NCBI RefSeq assembly: GCF_011927725.1
Contig: NZ_JAATJC010000001.1
Coordinates: 2,549,001-2,613,000, forward strand
Reading direction: 5' to 3'
Length of the DNA stretch: 64,000 bases
DNA from: Sphingomonas kaistensis
GTDB taxonomy: Bacteria > Pseudomonadota > Alphaproteobacteria > Sphingomonadales > Sphingomonadaceae
A program made the position numbers and the translations under genes. The notes under the pieces are model-generated. The model saw only the letters and a program-made list of their open reading frames with translations, did no database searches and had not been told where the DNA came from. Shown here one piece after another: positions 7,282 through 45,069 of the stretch (its first letter is position 1; every line of letters begins with the position of its first letter).

Positions 7282-7827
7282 ATGGCCTACGACCGCTATC
7301 CCGACGATGACCGCCGCGACGGCGCCTTCGATGACCGCCTTGACCGCGACCGTGAACGCCCGCGTGGCCGCGGCTTCTTCCGGGGTGGCCGCGACGATCG
7401 TGGCCCGTCCCGCTACGACGGCGACCGCGACGGGCGCCGCGACAGCCCGCGCATTGCGCGCGACGACGACCATCGCGCCCGACGCGGCGTTCCGTATGAC
7501 GAGACCAGCGACCTCATCGCTTCCAGCAAGGTTGAGGGCACGCCCGTCTACGGCCGCGACGACCGGCGTCTCGGCACCGTCAAGGCGCTGATGATCGACA
7601 AGGTCCGCGGCGAGGTGCGCTACGCCGTCCTCAGCCACGCAACCGGTTTCCTCGGCCTCGACGAAGAGGTTGTGCCCGTTCGCTGGGAAGAACTCCGCTA
7701 CGACGAGCGCCGCGGCGGCTACCGCGTCGACTTCACCTCCGAAGACGTCGCTTTCACCATCGAGAATCGCAGCCGCACCCGCACCGAGGCCCGCAACCTC
7801 GACCGCGAGGGCCGCATCCGGCGCTAG
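7282..7827 (+). CDS. PRC-barrel domain protein with Arg/Asp-rich disordered N-terminus
   Basis: 181 residues from ATG 7282, chosen because AGGAGG at 7268-7273 sits 8 bases upstream. Residues 1-75 are low-complexity and charged (Arg, Asp, Gly), probably disordered. Residues 80-165 look like a PRC barrel (LIASSKVEGTPVYGRDDRRLG, quoted in part: KVEGTPVYGRDDRRLGTV; then GEVRYAVLS...GFLGLDEEVVPVRWEEL). PRC barrels occur in RNA-processing and photosynthetic reaction-centre proteins and in many small stress proteins. The exact role is unknown. It sits alone between lexA and the TIR gene. Confidence 0.75.
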   Translation: MAYDRYPDDDRRDGAFDDRLDRDRERPRGRGFFRGGRDDRGPSRYDGDRDGRRDSPRIARDDDHRARRGVPYDETSDLIASSKVEGTPVYGRDDRRLGTVKALMIDKVRGEVRYAVLSHATGFLGLDEEVVPVRWEELRYDERRGGYRVDFTSEDVAFTIENRSRTRTEARNLDREGRIRR

Positions 7828-7968
7828 GCCGCGAAGGGGGGTGGCGGCATCAAGCGCGGCCGCCCCCTGACGCCGCCGCATCGAGACCTTGCCGCCGGGC
7901 ATTGACGCCCATTGATTTTGCGCTTGCCCGCGTTCACCCTCGGTCGAACGGTGAGGGGTGGCGTCAGC

Positions 7969-9972
7969 ATGGAACAAGCGGAGCTCGGCCCGGCTGCCGA
8001 AGCCGGCGAGCGGTCGGTCTTCATCAGCTACGCCACTGCTGATCGCGACAAGGCGCTCGCCATTTGCGAGGCGATGGAGCGGCGCGGCGTGTCATGCTGG
8101 ATCTCCTGCCGCGACGTCGAGCCAGGCGAGAACTACCAGGAGGCCATCGTCCACGCCATTCGGGGCGCGCGGGCGCTCGTGCTGGTCTTCTCCGAAGCCG
8201 CCAACAACAGCAACGAGATCAAGAAAGAGCTGTCGCTGGTCAGTCGTTTCGGCATCCCCTTGCTCGCGCTGCGGATCGAGGATGTCGAGCCGAGCGATGC
8301 CTTCGCCTACGAACTCTCCACCCGCCAATGGATCGACGCCTTCGCCGGCTGGGACCGCTCGATCGACGCGCTGGTCGCCCGGGTCGCGCGATTGGGCGGT
8401 AAGCCTGCCCACCACTCCCCTTCCACCACGCCCCTGCCGCTCCATGACGCCGGGCGGGATGCCAACGGCAGCAGGAAGCGGCTCGGCCTCGTTGCAGCCG
8501 GTGCCGCCGGTTTCCTTGCGCTTGCCGGCGGACTGGGCTGGCACTTCACCCGCACCGAGGCGGCCGCCTCGCAATCGCTCGCGGTTCGTCTGACCGGCTT
8601 CGAACAGCTCTCGTCCGACCTCGGCGCGGGAATGACGGGCGCGATGAAGGACGAAGTCGGCGCTGCGTTCGGCGAGGACGGCGTGGTCAGCGCCTCCACC
8701 GCCGCAGCGCCGCCCGCCGGCACTGCGCCGGCCTATGCGATTGGCGGGTCGGTCCGCCACGAAGGCGACAAAATCAAGGTCATCACCCGCCTCGTCAACG
8801 AGCGGACCGGCGCCAATCTTTGGTCGGCGAGCTTCATCTACGATCAGGCACAGGCCAATCACGTGCCCCGCCTCGCCGCGGTCGCCGCCACTAACGTCGT
8901 TCGCTGCGGCCTGTACGCCACCTCGACCTATCCCAGGGCGCTGCCCGACGCGACGCTAACCAACCTGATGAGCGCCTGCAACGAATTCGAGGTCGAGGGC
9001 GGAGAGCCCTCCAAGGCGCTGAATTTCGCGCGCAAGGCCGTCGCGCTGACCCCCGACTTCTCCGCCGGCTGGTCGATGATCACCATCGCCGGAGCGGTCG
9101 CGGCAATGCGCCTGCCCGATGGTCCGCAGCGCGACGCCTTCAACAAGGAAGCGCTCGACGCCGCGAACCGCGCGATCGACCTCGATCCCAAGAACAGCGA
9201 GGCCTATGCCTACAAGAGCTATCTGATCGGCACCAACGACCTCGTCGGCCGTGAGAAGTTGCTCAAGCAGGCGCTCGAGGCCCGACCCCTCGCCTGCGGC
9301 TGCGAACATCATTTCTACGGCAATCTGCTCGCCGAAACCGGGCGCATCGACTACGCGCTGCTCGAATTCCAGCGCGCGGTGGACGTGCTGTCGCTCAACA
9401 TGAGTTCGCAGCTCTCCTACGCCGACCTCCTCTCGCAGGTCGGCCGCCGCGATTCAGAGGTGAAGGAGCATGTCGATGCCGCCCTCGACCTCGTTCCCAA
9501 GCCGAAGATGCTCTCCGATCAGATCGACATCTATCTGGCGCCGATGACGGGTGATTATACCAAGGCCCTCCAGACCGTTCGCACAACGACCCAGCCGGTC
9601 CCGCCGAATGTCATGCCCGCCCTCGAAAAAGCGATCCTCGCCTTGCAGGGCAAGGATGCGGCGGCGCGGCGAGAGGCCGCATCGGCCATCGCCACGCTTC
9701 CCCAGCCGCTGGACGACATAAAGGTCCGCTATCTTGCGGCACTCGGTGACTACCCCGCCGCGCTCCGCCAGGTCGGCACTTCCGTCCTGAAGAACAAGGA
9801 CCCTTCCGGACGGGCCTGGCTGTTCACGCCGGTCATGGCGCCTGCCCTCCGCGATCCCGGCTTCCCCGCGCTCGCCCGGCAACTCGGGCTAATGGACTAT
9901 TGGAAGAACAGCGGGACAAAGCCCGACGTCTGCAAGTCTGCGCAGACGCCGCCCTTCTGCGGCATGATCTGA
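7969..9972 (+). CDS. Membrane-anchored TIR-domain protein with TolB-like and TPR regions
   Basis: 667 residues from ATG 7969 (an in-frame upstream extension to 7912 lacks a ribosome site). Residues 16-125 are a TIR domain: SVFISYATADRDKA, CWISCRDVEPGENY, VLVFSEAANNSNEIKKEL. E87 of the last motif is the likely equivalent of the NADase glutamate. A membrane helix spans about 174-192. Next is a TolB/FlgO-like region (AIGGSVRHEGDKIKVITRLV), then TPR-like helices from about 335 (EGGEPSKALNFARKAVALTP, ANRAIDLDPKNSEAYAYKSY). The layout resembles sphingomonad sensor proteins in which TIR replaces a cyclase or HTH head. Whether it signals, hydrolyses NAD or acts in defence is not shown. Confidence 0.85.
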   Translation: MEQAELGPAAEAGERSVFISYATADRDKALAICEAMERRGVSCWISCRDVEPGENYQEAIVHAIRGARALVLVFSEAANNSNEIKKELSLVSRFGIPLLALRIEDVEPSDAFAYELSTRQWIDAFAGWDRSIDALVARVARLGGKPAHHSPSTTPLPLHDAGRDANGSRKRLGLVAAGAAGFLALAGGLGWHFTRTEAAASQSLAVRLTGFEQLSSDLGAGMTGAMKDEVGAAFGEDGVVSASTAAAPPAGTAPAYAIGGSVRHEGDKIKVITRLVNERTGANLWSASFIYDQAQANHVPRLAAVAATNVVRCGLYATSTYPRALPDATLTNLMSACNEFEVEGGEPSKALNFARKAVALTPDFSAGWSMITIAGAVAAMRLPDGPQRDAFNKEALDAANRAIDLDPKNSEAYAYKSYLIGTNDLVGREKLLKQALEARPLACGCEHHFYGNLLAETGRIDYALLEFQRAVDVLSLNMSSQLSYADLLSQVGRRDSEVKEHVDAALDLVPKPKMLSDQIDIYLAPMTGDYTKALQTVRTTTQPVPPNVMPALEKAILALQGKDAAARREAASAIATLPQPLDDIKVRYLAALGDYPAALRQVGTSVLKNKDPSGRAWLFTPVMAPALRDPGFPALARQLGLMDYWKNSGTKPDVCKSAQTPPFCGMI

Positions 9973-10088: not shown

Positions 10089-13130
<3,042 letters not shown>

Positions 13131-13191
13131 TTCTCCGCGTTCAAAGCGAGAGTGGCTTAGCGAAGGTATTTGCCCTTAGGCAGAAGGCTAC

Positions 13192-14001
13192 TCACACAAC
13201 CCTTATGTTTCTGAAGGTAAGATTAAAACGAGAACCTTTGACGCCCTTGCGCTTCGGAACGCTGTGTACCCAGTTCTGCTGAGTCTCACCCTTCATCACT
13301 ACAAGACTGCCCGGCAACAAATCAAACGATAGCTGAGTCTTGGAGGCATTCTTAGGTTTAAATAGAAACTGGCGAGTTTCACCAAAACTAACAGATGCTA
13401 TGGTGGGACAAGTTCCGAGTTCCGGTTCATCATCCGCATGCCAATTAAGGCTGTCACTGCCATCCCTGTACCAATTTAGCAGTACACTATTGAAAGTTAC
13501 GTCGAGAGCAGCTTCTAGACGTGCTTTGAGATATAGTAGTCCGTCGTTCCACGGATTGGGGTCAGAGCGAATGCCCGAGTAGGCGTATGATGCTCCCTTA
13601 TCCCCGTACCACGCTGTTAAGCGTGGTAAGGGGTGCGTCTTCCCGAAGAACTTTATGTAGTCCTGCTTCCAGTTTACGTTTTCAAATTCTACTTCCTTTA
13701 GTTGGTCTGCAGGTACTTGCGCCCAGTCCACAACTTTCCATTGAAAATTCCTGCTTTCTTGTAGGTACTCAATCATCCTCTTACAAACTTTGTCGGAGAA
13801 AAAGTGCTCCGAGAACAGCAGCTCGCCACCCTCAAGAAGGATCCGCTCTCCCCCAATCTCTGGCGCGCTCTCGACTTTTACTCGAGCCTGAGGAGCGATA
13901 TCGATGCACCGCGAGAGGAGATTAGAGGGAGGAAACAGATCATCCACGATTGATCCCCAGAAATGCGTTCCAGCCAATGGCAGGGAACTTCCCTCCATCA
14001 C
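13192..14001 (-). CDS. AlkB-type 2-oxoglutarate/Fe(II) dioxygenase (nucleic-acid dealkylase)
   Basis: Up to 269 residues. The double-stranded beta-helix core has the iron ligands H188 and D190 (LNWHADDEPELG) and H246 (NWVHSVPK), with R258 and R264 (SRFNLTFRNI) for 2-oxoglutarate. The segment PRLTAWYGDKGASYAYSG resembles the nucleotide-recognition lid of ALKBH2/3-like enzymes. It should oxidatively remove methyl groups such as 1-methyladenine or 3-methylcytosine. The longest frame (GTG 14001, ATG 13998) overlaps the upstream methyltransferase by about 60 bases. GTG 13947, with GGGGA upstream and an 8-base overlap, is the alternative start and gives 251 residues. AT-rich; likely acquired with its partner. 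Confidence 0.88.
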   Translation of the reverse strand: MMEGSSLPLAGTHFWGSIVDDLFPPSNLLSRCIDIAPQARVKVESAPEIGGERILLEGGELLFSEHFFSDKVCKRMIEYLQESRNFQWKVVDWAQVPADQLKEVEFENVNWKQDYIKFFGKTHPLPRLTAWYGDKGASYAYSGIRSDPNPWNDGLLYLKARLEAALDVTFNSVLLNWYRDGSDSLNWHADDEPELGTCPTIASVSFGETRQFLFKPKNASKTQLSFDLLPGSLVVMKGETQQNWVHSVPKRKGVKGSRFNLTFRNIRVV

Positions 14002-14749
14002 CGCACGTGAATTCTCTTATATCGGATTCTTTGACGTCGATCCACGAGCGATACTTGGCTTTATCGAGCTCATCCTTGATACCTCGTAGCCGCCCGGCGC
14101 CTCCAGCGAACTCCCGATTATGGCTCACTGCGAGTACAATATGCTCACCCTCCGTCAGCAAAGCACTGAAGAGAGCACCAAGCTCAAACCCAGTTATGTC
14201 TAAAATATTTGAGAAGAGATGCAGTGTCTTGCTATCCGAAGCTTCGAAATCACTTTTCTCAAGATCACCGAGCTTTTTACTCAGGCAGGTAATCTCGGCC
14301 TTACTAAAAAGGTTCTGATAGACAGCTTCAGCTCGAATAAGTGCTTCGGGAGAGGGCTCAACCAGTAACACTTCCTTAACGCTCTTACGGAATTCGCTGC
14401 CAAATTTATCCGAAAGCAGAATGCCAGCTAAGCCCTGTCCGCAACCATAATCGACTACGCGTAGCGGCTCAGGCTTGAACGTTAAGTTGGCAGTAAACTC
14501 CTGCCACTGGGAGCAAACCATCTTTCCATAAGTATATAGATACTGATCCAGCTGATCTACATCAGACAAGATAGCCTTTCCCCAGTCAAGACTTTCCTTG
14601 ATGTCGTGATCCCTCTTAAAGGCTCCTCGCATCCACGTGAAAGATATTGGAGTGCTTTGTCCAGCGATGACTTTGATGGCTGGATCAGCACTGCGCAGGA
14701 CCTTAATCCGATCAGCACTCAAATCTAAATACTTGGAAGCCACAAGCAT
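13940..14749 (-). CDS. Uncharacterised class I SAM-dependent methyltransferase
   Basis: 269 residues. Motif I is VVDYGCGQGLAGILL (98-112), and the acidic end of strand 2 is VLLVEPSPEAL (127-137). Motif IV/post-IV is less clear (LHLFSNILDITGFE), and no DNA-methylase DPPY/NPPY motif is seen. The N-terminal 95 residues are helical and contain LDQYLYTYGKMVCSQWQEF. I do not recognise the subfamily, and the substrate (protein, RNA, nucleotide or small molecule) is open. It is the first gene of a two-gene unit with the AlkB gene, which it overlaps, so the two are almost certainly cotranscribed and may act in one process. AT-rich, unlike the host genes. Confidence 0.75.
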   Translation of the reverse strand: MLVASKYLDLSADRIKVLRSADPAIKVIAGQSTPISFTWMRGAFKRDHDIKESLDWGKAILSDVDQLDQYLYTYGKMVCSQWQEFTANLTFKPEPLRVVDYGCGQGLAGILLSDKFGSEFRKSVKEVLLVEPSPEALIRAEAVYQNLFSKAEITCLSKKLGDLEKSDFEASDSKTLHLFSNILDITGFELGALFSALLTEGEHIVLAVSHNREFAGGAGRLRGIKDELDKAKYRSWIDVKESDIREFTCGDGGKFPAIGWNAFLGINRG

Positions 14750-14910
14750 CTCACTTCACTGAAATTCGACACGGCACAACTCATCAAAGCACTTTTCGCG
14801 TTATTTGGAAATCCGAGCTTAAGGTGCACGCTCAGCGAGCGCTAGCATAAGCTTCAGTTGTATGGCGACTTCCAAGCCATTCCACTTGCCAAGCCAATTC
14901 TGAGTTACGT

Positions 14911-15654
14911 TCAACTCCCAGAATTTTCTCTCTGCCGCACCCCAAACGTCTGCTGCACCCCGGCCCCAGCCATCACCCGCGCCACCACCTGCGCCAGTTC
15001 CGCCGGCCCGTCGCCCGCGAACACCTCGCCATAGCCGACGCCTGCCCGCCGCAGCGCTTCCTTCTTGACCGCGTCGCGGGCGGCCGCCGCGCCCTGGTGG
15101 TGCCCCTGCCCCTGATATTCGATCGCCAGCCGCGGGCGCTGGTCGGCGTCGACCAGCAGGAAGTCGACGCGCTTGGCATTGATCGTGTTGAACGCCTCGA
15201 CCGTGCCGCCGTCCAGCACCTCGCCCAGGCTCACCTGCGTCCACACCCGCCAGCCGGGCTCCAGCCGCGCGACGATCGGCTCCAGCGCCGCCAGCACCTT
15301 CTCCTCGCCCTTGTTGAGCAGGCGCTTGGGCTTGAACTCCGACGCCATGACGATCCGCAATTGCTCGGCGGCGTCGTTGACGTTGGCGCGGATCGGCGGC
15401 GCCGGCTCGGCGGACCCGCCGACCTGACCCGGCCACGGCCCGCGCCATCCCGGCGGCGCGCCCTTGCGCGGGCGCTGGTTCCACTCGCCCTTGTGCCGCC
15501 ACTTGCCGCGACCCCGGGGCTTGTTCGTCCCGAACATCTGACTGAGCGCGGCAAAGGCCGCCACACTGACGAAGACAAAGACTGTCAGCGGAACAAGGTG
15601 CGGTAGGGCTTGGCCTGCGGCCGTCACCAGCATCTCCATGTAGGGATTGCTCAT
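14911..15654 (-). CDS. DUF2726 (PD-(D/E)XK-like) membrane-anchored protein, 3' end altered
   Basis: 247 residues from ATG 15654, chosen for the AGGAGGAGG just upstream. One N-terminal membrane helix (about 16-36) is followed by an Arg/Gly/Trp-rich linker. The DUF2726 domain (about 105-225) contains VWTQVSLGEVLDG, AKRVDFLLVD, LAIEYQGQGHH and AVKKEALRRAGVGYGEVF. That pattern matches the restriction-endonuclease-like fold (Asp, Glu, Lys). The substrate is unknown. The last about 15 codons (QQTFGVRQRENSGS) lie in AT-rich DNA of the adjacent island, so the native C-terminus was probably replaced when the island inserted. Confidence 0.75.
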   Translation of the reverse strand: MSNPYMEMLVTAAGQALPHLVPLTVFVFVSVAAFAALSQMFGTNKPRGRGKWRHKGEWNQRPRKGAPPGWRGPWPGQVGGSAEPAPPIRANVNDAAEQLRIVMASEFKPKRLLNKGEEKVLAALEPIVARLEPGWRVWTQVSLGEVLDGGTVEAFNTINAKRVDFLLVDADQRPRLAIEYQGQGHHQGAAAARDAVKKEALRRAGVGYGEVFAGDGPAELAQVVARVMAGAGVQQTFGVRQRENSGS

Positions 15655-15811
15655 GCCCTCCTCCTGCCACGACAAAGTTATTTAGAAGTTGATCCAGAGC
15701 GAGAAAAACGCCCCGTCACGGACTGAATCCATGTAAATTACTCGCGACGACTCCGCCGCATACCCCGGCGCTTCGCCCTGTCCCCTCGCGCAGCAGGAAG
15801 GTACCGGCCCC

Positions 15812-40476: not shown

Positions 40477-40929
40477 ATGAAAAGCCTTTCCCTTCTTGCG
40501 GCGGCCGTGGCCGTCGCGGCGCCCGCGAGCGCCCAGGCCCCTGCCCTTCACGTCAGCGGCTGGGCCCGCGCCGGAGTGAGCAGCAGCGCGGCTTATGTCA
40601 GCGTGCACAATGGCGGCGCCGCCGATCGCTTGCTGGGTGCGAGCAGCCCGGCGGCCGGGCAAGTGTCGATCCACGACAGCCAGAATAGCGGCGGCGTGAT
40701 GCGGATGCGGGCGGCGGGCGCGGTGCCGGTGGCCGCCGGTGGAAGCATCGCGATGAAGCCGAGTGGGCTGCACATCATGCTGTCGGGGCTGAAGACGCCG
40801 CTCAAGCCCGGGGCCAGGCTGCCGATCGTGCTTCGGTTCGAAAAGGCCGGGCTGGTACGGGCGAGCCTGCCGATCCTGCCGCCGGGAGCGCAGGGTCCGG
40901 CCGCCGCGGGGGCGCACCATGGCCACTGA
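40477..40929 (+). CDS. Periplasmic copper chaperone PCu(A)C
   Basis: 150 residues from ATG 40477 with a signal peptide (MKSLSLLAAAVAVAAPASAQ). The copper-binding motif H66-X10-M77-X21-H99-X-M101 is exactly of the PCuAC form: HDSQNSGGVMRM and KPSGLHIMLSG carry it. It delivers Cu(I) to the CuA centre of cytochrome oxidase. The C-terminal HHGH can bind further copper. It overlaps the SCO gene by 11 bases, and the two are a known functional pair. Confidence 0.95.
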   Translation: MKSLSLLAAAVAVAAPASAQAPALHVSGWARAGVSSSAAYVSVHNGGAADRLLGASSPAAGQVSIHDSQNSGGVMRMRAAGAVPVAAGGSIAMKPSGLHIMLSGLKTPLKPGARLPIVLRFEKAGLVRASLPILPPGAQGPAAAGAHHGH

Positions 40930-41560
40930 GGCGCCAGCGTCGAAGCTGAAGGTGCTGCGCCTCGTCCTGTGGTCGCTGGTAGGCCTTGCCGCCGTCGCCT
41001 TCGCTTGGCTGTTGCTGGTGCGGCCGGAAGGGCCGACGGTCACCAGCCGGGCCGACCCCGGCATGCCCGGCTTCACCATCGGCGCGCCGTTCACCTTGAC
41101 CGGCAGCGACGGGAAGCCCTTCAACAGCGCGCAGGCGCTTGCCGGGCGCCCCTATGCGATGTTCTTCGGCTTCACCAATTGCCCCGATGTGTGCCCCAAT
41201 ACACTGGGCAAGCTGGCCAAGCTGCGCGGACAGCTGGGCAAGGGTGACCAGGCGTTCGACATCGTGTTCGTGTCGGTCGACCCCAAGCGCGATACGCCGA
41301 AGGTCGTTGGGGACTATGTCGAGCTGTTCGGAACCCCGATCATCGGCCTGACCGGAAGTGAGGAACAGGTGGCAGCGGTGGCCAAGAGCCACGCCATCTA
41401 CCAGGCGCGGGTGCCCGACAAGGCGGCGCCCGGCGGCTACACCGTCGACCATGGCAGCCAGGTGCTGCTATTCGGGCGCGACGGCAAGTTCGTGTCGACC
41501 ATCGCGCAGGAGGAGGCCGACGCCCCCGCCCTCGACAAGCTGAAGCGGATCGTCGCCTAG
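40919..41560 (+). CDS. SCO1/SenC family copper-delivery protein
   Basis: 213 residues. One N-terminal membrane anchor (about 12-34) tethers a thioredoxin-like domain. Copper is bound by C88 and C92 (NCPDVCPNTL) and H178 (YTVDHGSQVLL). These are the defining residues of SCO proteins, which metallate cytochrome oxidase with PCuAC. It is the second gene of the copper pair and converges with the gene ending at 41572, only 11 bases away. Confidence 0.95.
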   Translation: MATEAPASKLKVLRLVLWSLVGLAAVAFAWLLLVRPEGPTVTSRADPGMPGFTIGAPFTLTGSDGKPFNSAQALAGRPYAMFFGFTNCPDVCPNTLGKLAKLRGQLGKGDQAFDIVFVSVDPKRDTPKVVGDYVELFGTPIIGLTGSEEQVAAVAKSHAIYQARVPDKAAPGGYTVDHGSQVLLFGRDGKFVSTIAQEEADAPALDKLKRIVA

Positions 41561-41571
41561 GCCTTCGCGCG

Positions 41572-42237
41572 CTATCTGGTGCGCATGGCGAGGCCGAAGG
41601 TCGTCGCGCTGAGCATATCGGCCATCAGGTTGGGCTGGGCATTGGCCGCACTGTCACTCCGCTCGGTCAGCAGCCAGCCACGCACCAGTCCGGTCTGAAC
41701 CCGGACGTTGCGTGCGCGCCCGCTCGCCTTGCTGGAGAATTGAAGGGTGCGGTGTTCGATGGCGTCGCTCCCCCGCTTCGGCCTGGCGGTCAGGAGCATG
41801 CCGGTCCACGGCTTGTAGCCAGGCTCTTTCACGGCAGCAGCCTGCGCATATTGCTCGGCCCAGTCGAGGGTCGCGTCGGCCGGGGCGCGTTCGACCGACG
41901 CGCGGAACAGGCTTCCGTTGCCGCTGGTCTCGCACGCCGCCGCAGTGGCGGTCGCATACAGGATCCGCTGCCCCTTCTTGCCGAGCGGGCAGCTCAGGCC
42001 CGAGGGAAGGTGTCGGGCCTTGCCCCCATTCACGTCGCTGGCGTCCTCGAACAGCCCGCTCGCACCGGCCCGCGCGATCTCCGCGGCGACTGCCTGCCTT
42101 GTCCGGGCGAGTTGCTCGGCCGACATCGGCTCGACGATCGTGATCCCCATGCTCTTCAGCAAATCGTCCTGCCGTTGCTGGGCCGATGCGGGGATGGCGA
42201 CGGCAAGAGCAGTCGCGGCAAGAAGATGGATACGCAT
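41572..42237 (-). CDS. Secreted hypothetical protein
   Basis: 221 residues from ATG 42237 with a clear signal peptide (MRIHLLAATALAVAIPASA) cleaved near 19. Residues 25-85 have LLKSMGITIVEPMSAEQLAR and end in a cysteine (LSCPLGKKGQR); a second cysteine (AACETSGNG) follows. The C-terminal part is beta-rich (LTARPKRGSDAIEHRTLQFS, VRVQTGLVRGWLLTERS) and ends in a hydrophobic helix. I recognise no family. It is convergent with the SCO gene and followed upstream by a repeat-rich AT segment. Confidence 0.65.
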   Translation of the reverse strand: MRIHLLAATALAVAIPASAQQRQDDLLKSMGITIVEPMSAEQLARTRQAVAAEIARAGASGLFEDASDVNGGKARHLPSGLSCPLGKKGQRILYATATAAACETSGNGSLFRASVERAPADATLDWAEQYAQAAAVKEPGYKPWTGMLLTARPKRGSDAIEHRTLQFSSKASGRARNVRVQTGLVRGWLLTERSDSAANAQPNLMADMLSATTFGLAMRTR

Positions 42238-42334
42238 GGTTACTCTCCGAACTGAATGTTGCGGGAGGCTATGCTCGGTGTGTCGCGTTGGCAATTGATG
42301 TGCGGGATTGGATTGATTGCAGGTTACTGGCGGC

Positions 42335-42369
42335 GAATGTCTGCAATGGGTGGAAAGCGGAATGTCTGC
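42335..42369 (+). repeat. Short dispersed repeat, left copy flanking the methyltransferase gene
   Basis: GAATGTCTGCAATGG (42335-42349) is followed by GGAATGTCTGC (42359-42369). The 15-mer recurs with one change (C for T at position 8) at 43388-43402, on the other side of the methyltransferase gene. Confidence 0.7.
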
Positions 42370-42434
42370 CTTGGTCAGAATAGGCTCTCTTCAGAGCTTA
42401 CGTCGGGACATCATACCCTAGCTTGTTGAAATGC

Positions 42435-43307
42435 TTAGTCTGGCGCACGACGGGCAACCAAGAGACAGCTTGATCCGAAAGGCACGGAGCGTCGGCCAGA
42501 GATTCGATCAGCTTCCCACGCAAACGAGCGTGAGAATCCTTTGCCAATCGTTCCCGATGGTAATCTATGATCGGCATCCACCGAAGACGGGCTGCCAGCA
42601 TTCGTAAGCCTTAGCCAGCTTGGGATTGAACGGAGCGCAAATATCGGCGCCACTAGCGAGGAGAAGAAGTAGGTCCCGAACTCAACCTGAAAGCCTGCGG
42701 ACGAAACCAGCTTGCTCAGAGAGGCCAGAGTGTACCGCCGGAAATGGCCCGCGTAATCATCTTCTGTTGACCACAACCATTTGAATGCGGGCACCGTTAG
42801 ATAGATTCTCCCTGCGGGTTTGAGGGACGCACGCAGATGGCCGAGCGCAGCGGCATCGTCTTCTATGTGTTCCAGAACGTCGAAAAGGCCGGCGGCCCCA
42901 ACGGATGCTGAAGGTATTTCAAGATCCTGGAATGGAGCCATGAGGACGGGCAACCCTCGCCCGTAGGCGCATTCCGCACCGGCCCTTCCGGGTTCGATGA
43001 CAACACTTTGGAAGCCAGCCTCGCGGAGGCCGAGGGAAACATATCCGTTTCCTCCACCAATATCGATGATTATCCCTTCTGGTGGAAATTGCTGAACGAC
43101 GGACGAGATGATCGCGTTTCGGTGTTTGAACCAATACGAGGCTTCTTCAACGTGAGCCAGACTGGTGTGGCCGCCAGGAGGGTAGGAGATGCCGTCGCCA
43201 TTGCTGAATTCCCAAAAACCCGGCCGCGGCGCGCGCAATCCTGATATTCCGGAGCTAAAGTCGCAAGCTGCCTCGAGCGTTTGCTGACTTACCGTCTGCC
43301 TACTCAT
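42435..43307 (-). CDS. Class I SAM-dependent methyltransferase in AT-rich segment
   Basis: 290 residues from ATG 43307. The open frame extends upstream, but that part translates the intergenic repeat. Motif I is IIDIGGGNGYVSLGLREAGF, strand 2 ends in VVIEPGRAGAE, motif IV is AAGLFDVLEHIEDDAAAL and post-motif is LKPAGRIYLTVPAFKWLWS. This is a Methyltransf_11/23-type enzyme, often for sugar or lipid methylation. The substrate cannot be named. The local AT content is higher than in neighbours, and a short repeat lies on each side, suggesting recent acquisition. Confidence 0.78.
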   Translation of the reverse strand: MSRQTVSQQTLEAACDFSSGISGLRAPRPGFWEFSNGDGISYPPGGHTSLAHVEEASYWFKHRNAIISSVVQQFPPEGIIIDIGGGNGYVSLGLREAGFQSVVIEPGRAGAECAYGRGLPVLMAPFQDLEIPSASVGAAGLFDVLEHIEDDAAALGHLRASLKPAGRIYLTVPAFKWLWSTEDDYAGHFRRYTLASLSKLVSSAGFQVEFGTYFFSSLVAPIFALRSIPSWLRLTNAGSPSSVDADHRLPSGTIGKGFSRSFAWEADRISGRRSVPFGSSCLLVARRAPD

Positions 43308-43387
43308 TCGATAAACGCTCCCCTCGCGACATGGCGCCCTTGCCCAGCAGGGTAATTCGCCCGGGAAAGGCAGATGCGGATCAACCC

Positions 43388-43419
43388 GAATGTCCGCAAT
43401 GGCACAAGAGCAGACATTC
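43388..43419 (+). repeat. Short dispersed repeat, right copy flanking the methyltransferase gene
   Basis: GAATGTCCGCAATGG (43388-43402) followed by GCAGACATTC (43410-43419) forms an inverted pair: GAATGTCYGC against its complement. The left copy carries the same 15-mer but as a direct repeat. Confidence 0.7.
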
Positions 43420-43452
43420 GCATCAGGCGTCGCGCTGCGGTAGGGCTCGCTC

Positions 43453-43641
43453 ATGACAAGGCCCGCTTCCATTGAACGCGCGTTCGAACTCGCCCGGTCG
43501 GGCCGATGCCGCAGCGTGGCGGCCATCGTGCGGCTGCTGGGCGACGACGAGCGGGCAGCCGTCGAGGAGTATCTCAAGACGCCGGCGGCGAGACGGGAGC
43601 TCATTCTGGTCTGCAGCGACGCGTGGCTCGCGGTGCGGTAG
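43453..43641 (+). CDS. Small conserved-looking protein, 62 residues
   Basis: 62 residues from ATG 43453. It is helical with no signal peptide: MTRPASIERAFELARSGRCR, then AAIVRLLGDDERAAVEEYLK, then ELILVCSDAWLAVR. The FELARSGxC segment followed by a charged helix is reminiscent of short alphaproteobacterial proteins of unknown function. The first ATG lies 34 bases after the repeat. It has no neighbour of known role. The ribosome site is weak (GGGCTCGCTC). Confidence 0.5.
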   Translation: MTRPASIERAFELARSGRCRSVAAIVRLLGDDERAAVEEYLKTPAARRELILVCSDAWLAVR

Positions 43642-43678
43642 GATCGGCGTCGCAGCGCGGTCCTTCGCCGCTGCGCCG

Positions 43679-44182
43679 TCAGTAGTCGAACCGCAGGCCC
43701 CGGCAGGGTGTCGGGCGCAGGTGGTAATCCGCGAAGACGGACGAGGGCTTGTCCCTGGTCTGTTCGGTGATCGTCCAGCGCCAGCCGGTGCCGACGCGGC
43801 TGAAGCGATTGAGATAGGTCGCGTCGGTGAAGCGGTAGCGCTGGACGAAGCCGCCCGCTTCCAATTCGCCGAGGCCAAGCGAGGGTTCGTACAGGCCGCC
43901 GAAGGTGTCCAGGAAGACCGATCCAATCGCATTGGGCTTCTCGCCCGCGCCATAGGTGATCGCCGCTTCATACGGGTCCGACCCGAGGGCGCGCAGGTTG
44001 AGCGTGAAATAGCGCTGGCCCAGATGCCATTGGCCCCGCGCGATCGAAGGAGAGTCCTTGCCCTGCACCTGTCCGCTGACCCGCCAGCAGCCTTGCAGGC
44101 CAGCCACGCCGGCGAGACCGGGCGGCACGGTGTAGGCCGGAGTCGCCAGCATGAGGGTCAGCGCCAGCATCGTCATCGACAT
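43679..44182 (-). CDS. Secreted hypothetical protein (lipocalin-like)
   Basis: 167 residues from ATG 44182, in a frame open further upstream into the hydrolase gene region. The signal peptide is MSMTMLALTLMLATPAYTVP. The mature part begins with LQGCWRVSGQVQGKD and is beta-rich (GQWHLGQRYFTLNLRALGS, YEAAITYGAGEKPNAIGSV, FVQRYRFTDATYLNRF, GWRWTITEQTRDK), suggesting a lipocalin-like or DUF1579-like barrel. Cysteines GCW and PCRGL could pair. The fold assignment is an inference. It lies 23 bases after the hydrolase stop. Confidence 0.65.
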   Translation of the reverse strand: MSMTMLALTLMLATPAYTVPPGLAGVAGLQGCWRVSGQVQGKDSPSIARGQWHLGQRYFTLNLRALGSDPYEAAITYGAGEKPNAIGSVFLDTFGGLYEPSLGLGELEAGGFVQRYRFTDATYLNRFSRVGTGWRWTITEQTRDKPSSVFADYHLRPTPCRGLRFDY

Positions 44183-44205
44183 CTCCGGTACACCCGAGCT
44201 TGGGT

Positions 44206-45069
44206 CTAATCCGTGACCCGCGCCAGCAGGCGTTCGACGGCGGCGATGCTTTCGGGTTCGTCGAAGCTGGGGGCGTGGCCGACCTCCTCGATCGTGACGA
44301 GCTCGGCGTCGTCGCCCAGCTCGCGGACCATGCGCTCGGCGGTGGCGGCGGAGAACAGGTCGCTGGTGGCGCCGCGCAGGATGGTCACCGGGCGGCCCTT
44401 GAGATGGTCGAGCCACGGCCACAGGTTGGGCTGGGTCGCGTCATTGGCCTCGGCAAAGGGTTCGGCGATGCGCATGTCATAGTCGTAGACGACCTGCGGC
44501 CCTTCCTCGCGGCAGCAGCGGCGGGCGAAGCGTTCCCATTCGGCCACGCCCCAGCGCGGGTAGACGTCGCCCATCCGTGCCATCATCGCCGTGGCGGCGT
44601 CGGCGAAGCTGGTCCAGGTCACGGGCTTTCCGACATAGGTGCGAATGCGCTCGATGCCCTTCGGGTCGACTTCCGGCCCGATGTCGTTGAGAAGGGCGCC
44701 GGCGAGGCGCTCATTCTCCATCGCCGCAATCAGCATGGTGACGAGGCCGCCGAGCGAGGTGCCGATGAACACCGCGTCGGCGATCCCGAGCTGGTCGAGC
44801 AGCTTGATCACGTCGCGGGCATAGGTGGCGGGCATGTAGCGCGAGGGGTCGGGGTCGGCCGCGCTTCCGCCGCGACCGCGGAAGTCGAGCGCGAGGACGC
44901 GCCATTCGCCGGCGAAGCGGTCGGCCAGCGGCTCGAAATCGCGGGCATTGCGGGTCAGGCCCGGAAGGCACAGGATCGGGGGCTGGTCGGGATCTCCCCC
45001 CGCATAATCGCGGTAATGGAGCCGAAGGCCGTCCGTGCTGTTGTAGTTCCGGTCCTCGTACCGAGCCAC
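44206..45069 (-). CDS. Alpha/beta hydrolase
   Basis: 287 residues. A complete catalytic triad is visible: nucleophile S105 in FIGTSLGGLV, an Asp in GATSDLFSAAT, and His in VEEVGHAPSF (VGHAP). The oxyanion loop is LPGLTRNARDF. DFRGRGGSAADPD is the usual strand-4 motif of epoxide-hydrolase/esterase-like proteins. The substrate is unknown. It is the first gene of a pair with the secreted hypothetical protein and is divergent from selO. Confidence 0.9.
   Translation of the reverse strand: MARYEDRNYNSTDGLRLHYRDYAGGDPDQPPILCLPGLTRNARDFEPLADRFAGEWRVLALDFRGRGGSAADPDPSRYMPATYARDVIKLLDQLGIADAVFIGTSLGGLVTMLIAAMENERLAGALLNDIGPEVDPKGIERIRTYVGKPVTWTSFADAATAMMARMGDVYPRWGVAEWERFARRCCREEGPQVVYDYDMRIAEPFAEANDATQPNLWPWLDHLKGRPVTILRGATSDLFSAATAERMVRELGDDAELVTIEEVGHAPSFDEPESIAAVERLLARVTD

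Follow-up and report, generated by a model that had tools for sequence, protein, structure and literature searches.

Two overlapping genes in Sphingomonas kaistensis, one for an S-adenosylmethionine (SAM) methyltransferase of an unnamed family (here MT) and one for an AlkB-type Fe(II)/2-oxoglutarate (2OG) dioxygenase (here AlkB), are best read as a mobile anti-phage module that sits in a hotspot for foreign cargo downstream of uvrA. They lie in a stretch of 64,000 nucleotides (nt) which we call the window (contig NZ_JAATJC010000001.1, positions 2,549,001 to 2,613,000 of the forward strand). In this module, MT would modify nucleic acid and AlkB would remove or process the mark; we put the probability of this reading at about 0.6. 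Its parts differ in strength. An anti-phage function of the pair is probable, the substrate of MT is presumably nucleic acid, and it is possible, at somewhat below even odds, that AlkB erases the very mark that MT writes. If the reading is true, alkylation and its repair, usually seen as damage chemistry, would also serve as a weapon or a mark in the immunity of bacteria. No curated name exists for the MT family. In addition, the slot next to uvrA offers more defence candidates, as yet uncharacterised, within a small space.

The two genes occur together

In 84,980 species, each represented by one genome, 275 relatives of MT were found, of which we retrieved the 80 best. Each of the top 15 of these 80 loci has an AlkB gene immediately 3' of MT, in the same orientation. 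Besides the window, 19 loci including these 15 were taken as pairs; all 19 have this order, with a gap of −71 to +33 nt between the longest open reading frames (ORFs), and in three more Acinetobacter genomes the gap is 1–15 nt. The 22 pair loci besides the window (the top 15, L052, L064, a Moraxella plasmid, the family genome L109 and the three Acinetobacter genomes) were picked for being pairs. The unselected count is that of 81 MT loci, made up of 80 genome loci and one viral contig; within 6 kb on the same strand, 21 of these have AlkB only, 55 a DUF1848 gene only, 3 both and 2 neither. In a sample of Acinetobacter, MT was found in 6 of 175 genomes and AlkB stands beside it in all six, two copies at 30% identity included. 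Among the top 120 AlkB hits in a protein collection, 28 (the window's own included) are on a contig of exactly the same size as one with a top-120 MT hit, while a control with shifted sizes gave 2.3 shared on average and 6 at most. A joined MT–AlkB query returned 49 hits, with two apparent single chains that each cover 95% of it (P0241 at 43% identity and P0242 at 34%).

The pairing is real, and the genes are together in every locus read of the clade to which the window's MT belongs. The earlier note, made from the letters of the window, had offered to give up its proposal if homologues of MT were never next to AlkB, and the top 15 of 80 loci, the six Acinetobacter genomes and the two apparent fusions answer this. 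The overlap, the near-constant pairing with a possible demodification enzyme and the apparent fusions suggest a shared substrate for the two proteins, and the overlap makes translational coupling probable as well.

A foreign insert in a variable slot

GC content falls from about 0.66 to 0.47–0.51 across the pair. The insert as a whole (13131–14929) is at 0.482, against a mean of 0.665 (standard deviation 0.032) for 311 segments of 1,800 nt, of which those over the insert are the lowest. GC at third codon positions (GC3) is 0.49–0.51 in the two genes and 0.80–0.90 in five genes nearby. The correlation of codon usage with a reference of uvrA, nudix and sodC is 0.11 and 0.15 for the pair and 0.58–0.99 for these five neighbours, where the reference genes are themselves among the five and 0.58 is the value of the DUF2726 gene. 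On the left, the DNA match in two sisters (G447 and G412) stops at the uvrA stop codon, 13130; on the right, homology to the two closest sisters (G447 and G410) restarts at 14930. The description of two overlapping minus-strand genes bounded by an abrupt drop in GC is therefore confirmed, and the comparison of local GC and codon use that had been proposed as a check finds the pair foreign-like. The bounds of 13131..14950 given before hold as far as an AT-rich insert is concerned, with the right edge nearer 14929.

The insert contains the MT and AlkB genes only. The MT frame reads from 14749 to 13940 and that of AlkB from 13947 to 13192, so that they overlap by 8 nt. The longest form of the AlkB frame is 13192–14001 on the minus strand; the GTG start at 13947, which gives 251 residues and the 8-nt overlap, is preferred because homologues support it. 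No convincing insertion-site repeats were found; I2 is a 17-nt inverted pair at 13030–13046 and 14930–14946 that is 88% complementary. Promoter and terminator scans gave matches at chance level. A second, milder dip in GC is present at 41001–44400 of the window (0.60–0.64); no cargo was identified among its open frames from 40801 to 43600.

The place of the insert is shared by other species. A uvrA match is present in all 61 genus genomes searched, at E = 0 in 51 of them (the window's own included), while several of the others have only weak ATPase matches. Slots after uvrA were compared in 48 sisters and the window, 49 in total; 12 sisters were left out where uvrA was unrecovered, partial or at a contig end. 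With an AT-rich ORF defined as one of at least 130 residues and a GC of 0.56 or less, such ORFs start no more than 2.6 kb from uvrA in 24 of the 49 slots, against 1 of 41 at 3 kb or more. Counted as ORFs, which are not independent of each other, this is 40 of 142 near uvrA against 1 of 107 further out. Two slots, L105 and L126, look doubtful, and some sisters, such as L107, have no AT-rich cargo in the slot.

PADLOC was run on the cargo of 24 sisters, and five striking cargo proteins were searched against the PDB. Defence-type matches came up in the cargo of 10 of the 24 scanned sisters, in a scan run without a control on non-cargo genes (Table 1). The slot after uvrA is thus a cargo hotspot across the genus that also holds defence-type cargo. 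The cargo differs between species, and for this reason uvrA is the anchor of the slot and not a functional partner. Many AT-rich cargo genes of these slots (the window's and L102–L153) belong to no recognised family, for example a 594-residue protein in L104 and a pair of 547 and 197 residues in L108, and the cargo of L140 had no match in the PDB. As for the right flank, 8 of the 17 genus and family stretches read have a DUF2726 match.

Character of the two proteins

AlkB matches PF13532 at 1.3e-30, and its HxD motif (residues 170–172), distal histidine (228) and arginines (240 and 246) are in place. H170, D172, H228, R240 and R246, the catalytic residues of this family, are invariant in 47 AlkB homologues. 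Of the 18 PDB sequences that it matches, 16 are ALKBH3 or ALKBH2 and two are an uncharacterised protein, P8A3.02c; none is an ALKBH8 chain. Human ALKBH3 (chain 2iuw) is matched at 5.3e-36 and 127 bits. This likeness to ALKBH2 and ALKBH3 points to nucleic acid as the substrate and to removal of base methylation as the activity. In the abstract of PMC13390031, 1-methyladenine (1mA) and 3-methylcytosine (3mC) are given as substrates of AlkB, ALKBH2 and ALKBH3. AlkB is the sole AlkB match in the window's genome at E 0.001. A second match, at E 1e-17 or better, is present in 6 of the 17 pair-bearing genomes, so the AlkB of the pair is not always the housekeeping copy.

MT has the class I motif I, DYGCGQG, at residues 100–106. 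D100–G106 and E131 are at least 90% conserved in 88 MT sequences, as expected of a class I SAM methyltransferase, and E131 is probably the acidic residue that follows the second strand. Beyond this the family is hard to place. No Pfam model reaches its cut-off on the MT of the window, the best being Methyltransf_31 (5.5e-4, 20.1 bits against a cut-off of 27); this model is matched at E 0.01 or better by 27 of the 88 family members. No NCBIfam model fits. Searches of the PDB gave nothing useful, either with the single sequence (best 0.042, ribosomal protein L3) or with a profile (best 0.11). Similarity to Hen1 is confined to motif I, at E 0.8–0.9, and neither MT nor AlkB of the window has a Pfam match to an RNA-binding domain. 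A DPPY-type motif IV is absent, and the segment taken as motif IV reads HLFSNILD (residues 177–184). DNA N-methyltransferases of restriction systems have a motif IV of the form (D/N/S)PP(Y/F/W) and a nuclease partner; MT has neither, the insert being of two genes. The earlier note had read motif I and an intact HxD...H...R in the same way and had seen no DPPY, all of which is borne out. Its view of MT as an uncharacterised family holds for the window protein, with the qualification that 3 of 120 listed homologues have a precomputed PF13847 label.

Spread across genomes

The pair spreads patchily across phyla. Of 397 genomes of the family, two have an MT match, one of them being the window's own; a phylum sample of 398 genomes also gave two, of which the second is weak and partial. 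In a tree of MT (83 rows), 15 rows with AlkB and L006 form one branch with a support of 100/99, and this branch mixes Pseudomonadota, Cyanobacteriota and Bacteroidota. L006 is labelled "none" in the tree because an antisense ORF was called there; AlkB is adjacent by tblastn, and the locus is counted as a pair. Of 20 pair loci, counting the window, 12 have a pair whose GC is at least 0.06 below that of its flanks and 8 do not, some of the flanks being short. Taken together, a mobile, horizontally transferred pair is supported. It is worth noting that L011, labelled Kurthia (Bacillota), has genes near-identical to those of Acinetobacter; it is probably a misbinned contig of a metagenome-assembled genome (MAG) and not an independent case.

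Mobile elements give few examples. The plasmid records with MT are two, both from one strain of Moraxella osloensis, and these (L083 and L160) contain the same segment with viperin, the MT–AlkB pair and a gene for single-stranded DNA-binding protein. Phage records gave one weak MT hit only. Among viral contigs there is one distant MT relative with DUF1848 (L001), and an alignment scan confirmed none. An unverified phage record from human faeces, MT836254.1 (L084), has DUF1848 at 7561–8568, directly upstream of an MT relative at 8639–9202. A DUF1848 homologue is also found at 319196–319978 in the records LR756501.1 and LR756503.1 of a 735-kb phage genome.

In five Acinetobacter-type copies, the ratio of nonsynonymous to synonymous substitution rates (dN/dS) is 0.15–0.21 for MT and 0.05–0.11 for AlkB, with MT of L015 and L016 read from a start inside the longest ORF. 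Such values are those of purifying selection and show that neither gene is being lost. MT evolves more quickly; between L013, L015 and L016 its dN is 0.22–0.36, against about 0.10 for AlkB. The dS values of the two genes disagree between L013 and L161 (0.17 for MT vs 0.80 for AlkB), which suggests gene-wise recombination or pressure on MT.

Neighbouring genes and distant relatives

Defence-type genes are found not only in the hotspot of the sisters but also near the pair in other genomes. The Moraxella pair (L083) has a viperin gene 3 kb away, a type I specificity subunit is encoded some 5 kb upstream of the pair in L014, and L017 has an SspA/DndA-like protein just 3' of AlkB. Related copies in L011, L013, L161 and L015 have a Csx1/CARF-type protein upstream of the pair, immediately so in the first three and at a greater distance in L015. 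In L162, a Card1/Can2-like protein (10963–12228) is 1 kb upstream, and the same contig (G930:C77) has another Card1 match and a Cas10-like gene about 15 kb away. Some pair loci show no known defence gene; the neighbour tallies cover 145 of 174 neighbours at 19 loci, and for most loci a tallied match is not assignable to a position. Two links were dropped. An obligate tie to type III CRISPR is rejected, since a Cas10 palm model passes in only 6 of 20 genomes and not in that of the window; it is strong only in G930 (5.7e-30), and the other five, at about 1e-6, are taken as diguanylate cyclases. A link to RtcR rested on one tallied neighbour, and the profile matches in 17 of 18 genomes; these matches are read as ordinary sigma-54 activators because they almost always run from position ~120 on only.

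The gene before MT in Bacteroidota is usually DUF1848, by a PF08902 match in the one case scanned and by sequence clustering in the others. The DUF1848 protein, in the one sequence read, has a CX3CX2C cysteine motif, which we take to link it to radical-SAM enzymes, and PADLOC files a DUF1848 model under DRT systems. Bacteroidota also have MT fused to Sel1/leucine-rich repeats, as in L018 (9881–13651). A fusion to a DEAD-box helicase, DpdF by PADLOC, is present in L035 (9962–15169) and L073 (9890–14398), and in L073 the fused MT follows an AlkB gene instead of DUF1848. Larger operons (L028, L054, L067, L071, L079 and L080) combine AlkB, a superfamily 1 (SF1)/UvrD-like helicase, an ADP-ribosyltransferase/glycohydrolase protein (PF22546/PF22545 by the scan of L028) with an MT of about 488 residues, and DUF1848 is also present in three of the six, L067 among them.

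Table 1. Features of the window, cargo of the uvrA slot in sister genomes and larger operons with MT relatives
Feature	Locus	Position	Strand	Remarks
AT-rich insert (hotspot cargo) between uvrA and DUF2726 gene	window	13131..14929		GC 0.482 vs 0.665; sisters match flanks, not interior
MT, class I SAM methyltransferase, unnamed family, 269 residues, first gene of pair	window	13940..14749	-	motif I DYGCGQG
AlkB, ALKBH2/3-like Fe(II)/2OG dioxygenase, 251 residues, GTG start, second gene	window	13192..13947	-	PF13532 1.3e-30
uvrA, conserved left anchor of hotspot	window	10089..13130	+	E = 0 in 51/61 genus genomes
DUF2726 gene, native right flank in close sisters	window	14911..15675	-	PF10881 1.8e-20
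AriA-like ATPase and weak AriB match	L102			PARIS-like
PDC-M31A/B	L103			
HEC-07	L106			GC 0.58, hence outside the 24 AT-rich slots
CD-NTase	L111			2.5e-10
Two reverse transcriptases of DRT kind	L113 and L139			assigned to these loci from sequence
OLD/HEC-01-like ATPase	L115			generic match
SIR2-type match	L133			weak, 8.7e-5
Macrodomain protein	L151			7e-37
dNTP triphosphohydrolase	L152			1.2e-78
Larger operon	L028	5860-10663		
Larger operon	L054	5722-10657		
Larger operon	L067	1008-6931		

What the pair may do

In the mechanism that we favour, the product of the first gene would use SAM to place a methyl group, or one related to it, on nucleic acid, and the target would be RNA or single-stranded DNA by analogy with the substrates of AlkB enzymes. 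The ALKBH3-like product of the second gene would remove or process this mark, and the cell's own molecules would stay clean until infection disturbs the balance between the two. This would be a modify-and-erase pair like DarTG, with methylation in the place of ADP-ribosylation, and it is favoured because the likeness to ALKBH2/3 points to nucleic acid and to the removal of base methylation. A bolder version, which we hold to be doubtful, is a new class of immune module where an orphan MT is wired to interchangeable direct-reversal enzymes, MT sets a lesion on infection and the partner restrains MT. In Pseudomonadota, cyanobacteria and some Bacteroidota this partner would be AlkB; in most Bacteroidota it would be DUF1848, both would sometimes be present, and larger versions would have MT fused to helicases. 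Immunity would then work by controlled alkylation damage, with a growth-blocking methyl-type lesion put on nucleic acid once infection is sensed.

Several observations weigh against the proposed anti-phage, modify-and-erase pair. MT lacks a recognisable motif IV of nucleic-acid methyltransferases, so that even the class of its substrate is presumed. DUF1848, not AlkB, is the partner in most Bacteroidota relatives, and 2 of the 81 MT loci have neither (one of them being a 5.8-kb contig). Adjacency is a property of MT and not of AlkB, as 7,699 AlkB relatives were scored and most of these need not have this MT. The apparent fusions each come from one short metagenomic contig (2,783 and 3,176 nt) and may be frameshifts that join neighbours. 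At L009 (8606–10168), AlkB is broken by one stop while MT is open over 242 residues, possibly shortened; this is either a decaying copy or an assembly error in a MAG, and an open MT beside an interrupted AlkB argues against MT being a lethal toxin. With regard to the defence setting, the cargo of L104 and L108 matched nothing in PADLOC, nor did 6 of 10 pair neighbours checked singly, and 14 of the 24 scanned sisters have no placeable defence match. Because of such unmatched cargo, and of PADLOC scans without a control on non-cargo genes, residence in the hotspot is no proof of defence.

Alternatives in the manner of ALKBH8 or Hen1 explain the linkage equally well, and only the chemistry differs. 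In a sequential hypermodification like that of ALKBH8, MT would methylate and AlkB oxidise (or AlkB would prepare the site), and a complex base in tRNA or DNA would block nucleases of phages or toxins. ALKBH8 itself is a precedent, the MT-first order and the apparent fusions fit two steps on one substrate, and DUF1848 could be an alternative enzyme for the second step. We consider this unlikely, as the dioxygenase is ALKBH2/3-like in 16 of 18 PDB matches, with no ALKBH8 among them, and no RNA-binding domain was matched. The pair could also repair and protect nucleic acid damaged by phage effectors or toxins, with AlkB reversing an adduct and MT adding a protective methyl group, in the way that Hen1 with Pnkp combines repair with protective methylation. 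Distant MT relatives in operons with AlkB and/or DUF1848, the SF1/UvrD-like helicase and the ADP-ribosyltransferase/glycohydrolase protein speak for it, as do the CARF proteins upstream in some Acinetobacter loci. It appears quite unlikely in view of an insert of two genes only (polynucleotide kinase and RNA ligase were not searched for elsewhere) and a Hen1 similarity of motif I only.

Two other explanations do without a joint role in immunity. The first is a common adaptive response to alkylating agents in the environment, in which MT would have an unrelated or regulatory role and the hotspot would be incidental. It draws on the closeness of AlkB to repair dioxygenases and its being the sole AlkB match of the window's genome. 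The second AlkB in 6 of 17 pair-bearing genomes speaks against it, the patchy spread and the hotspot cargo point to conflict, and we regard it as improbable. A methyl-damage response was also among the suggestions of the earlier note; it is now less likely, though retained as a rival. That two unrelated cargo genes share the insert by chance would have nothing in its favour beyond the question of the MT substrate, and with the two genes side by side in the best 15 of the 80 loci and in all six Acinetobacter genomes that have MT, its probability is close to nil.

The anti-phage, modify-and-erase pair thus remains the preferred reading. The earlier note had come to a similar interpretation. Linkage and transfer stand, and a transferred cassette in a defence setting is supported by the uvrA hotspot and by some of the other pair neighbourhoods. 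What falls away is a functional meaning for the position beside uvrA, which only anchors a slot whose cargo varies between species.

Relation to known systems

In the open-access literature searched, where subscription journals are mostly absent, there was no paper on an MT–AlkB module, nothing on DUF1848 and nothing joining AlkB and "defense island"; for a CARF domain with AlkB, only a modelling paper on RNA repair was found. The excerpts of PMC9503650 and PMC12458937 consulted do not mention AlkB.

Comparison with described systems shows partial likeness in each case. PADLOC has a CARF_2OG model, and AlkB matches its dioxygenase half at 7.9e-59 (profile positions 136–350 of 353). Identity with this system is rejected, as there is no CARF domain in the window and only the generic half is matched; a Bacteroidota AlkB also matches, and the result is therefore not used as evidence of CARF regulation. 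Restriction-modification and MADS systems likewise have a SAM-dependent enzyme in a defence setting, but here MT has no DPPY-type motif, the insert has no nuclease and mad2 is matched at only 2e-5. ALKBH8 is a fusion of AlkB and a methyltransferase with an RNA recognition motif, so that the same two activities are joined. It differs in that the dioxygenase of the window is ALKBH2/3-like, that no RNA-binding domain or ALKBH8 chain was matched, that the two are separate genes in the window, and that the domain order in the apparent fusions is opposite. With ALKBH2 and ALKBH3, AlkB shares the catalytic residues and the 127-bit similarity to ALKBH3, while its N-terminal part, some 80 residues, is not covered by the alignment to ALKBH3, and it is coupled to MT and sits in a hotspot.

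DarTG consists of the ADP-ribosyltransferase DarT and the macrodomain eraser DarG. The proposed likeness is that of a modifying enzyme followed by its eraser in one small operon, and a macrodomain cassette stands in the uvrA slot of one sister (L151). The chemistry differs, being that of a SAM methyltransferase and an Fe/2OG dioxygenase; Pfam and PADLOC scans of the pair give methyltransferase-like and 2OG matches and no ADP-ribosylation domain. Finally, the locus resembles chromosomal defence hotspots in its fixed anchor gene and in its variable AT-rich cargo, which in sister species is partly of defence type, and in this genus the anchor is uvrA.

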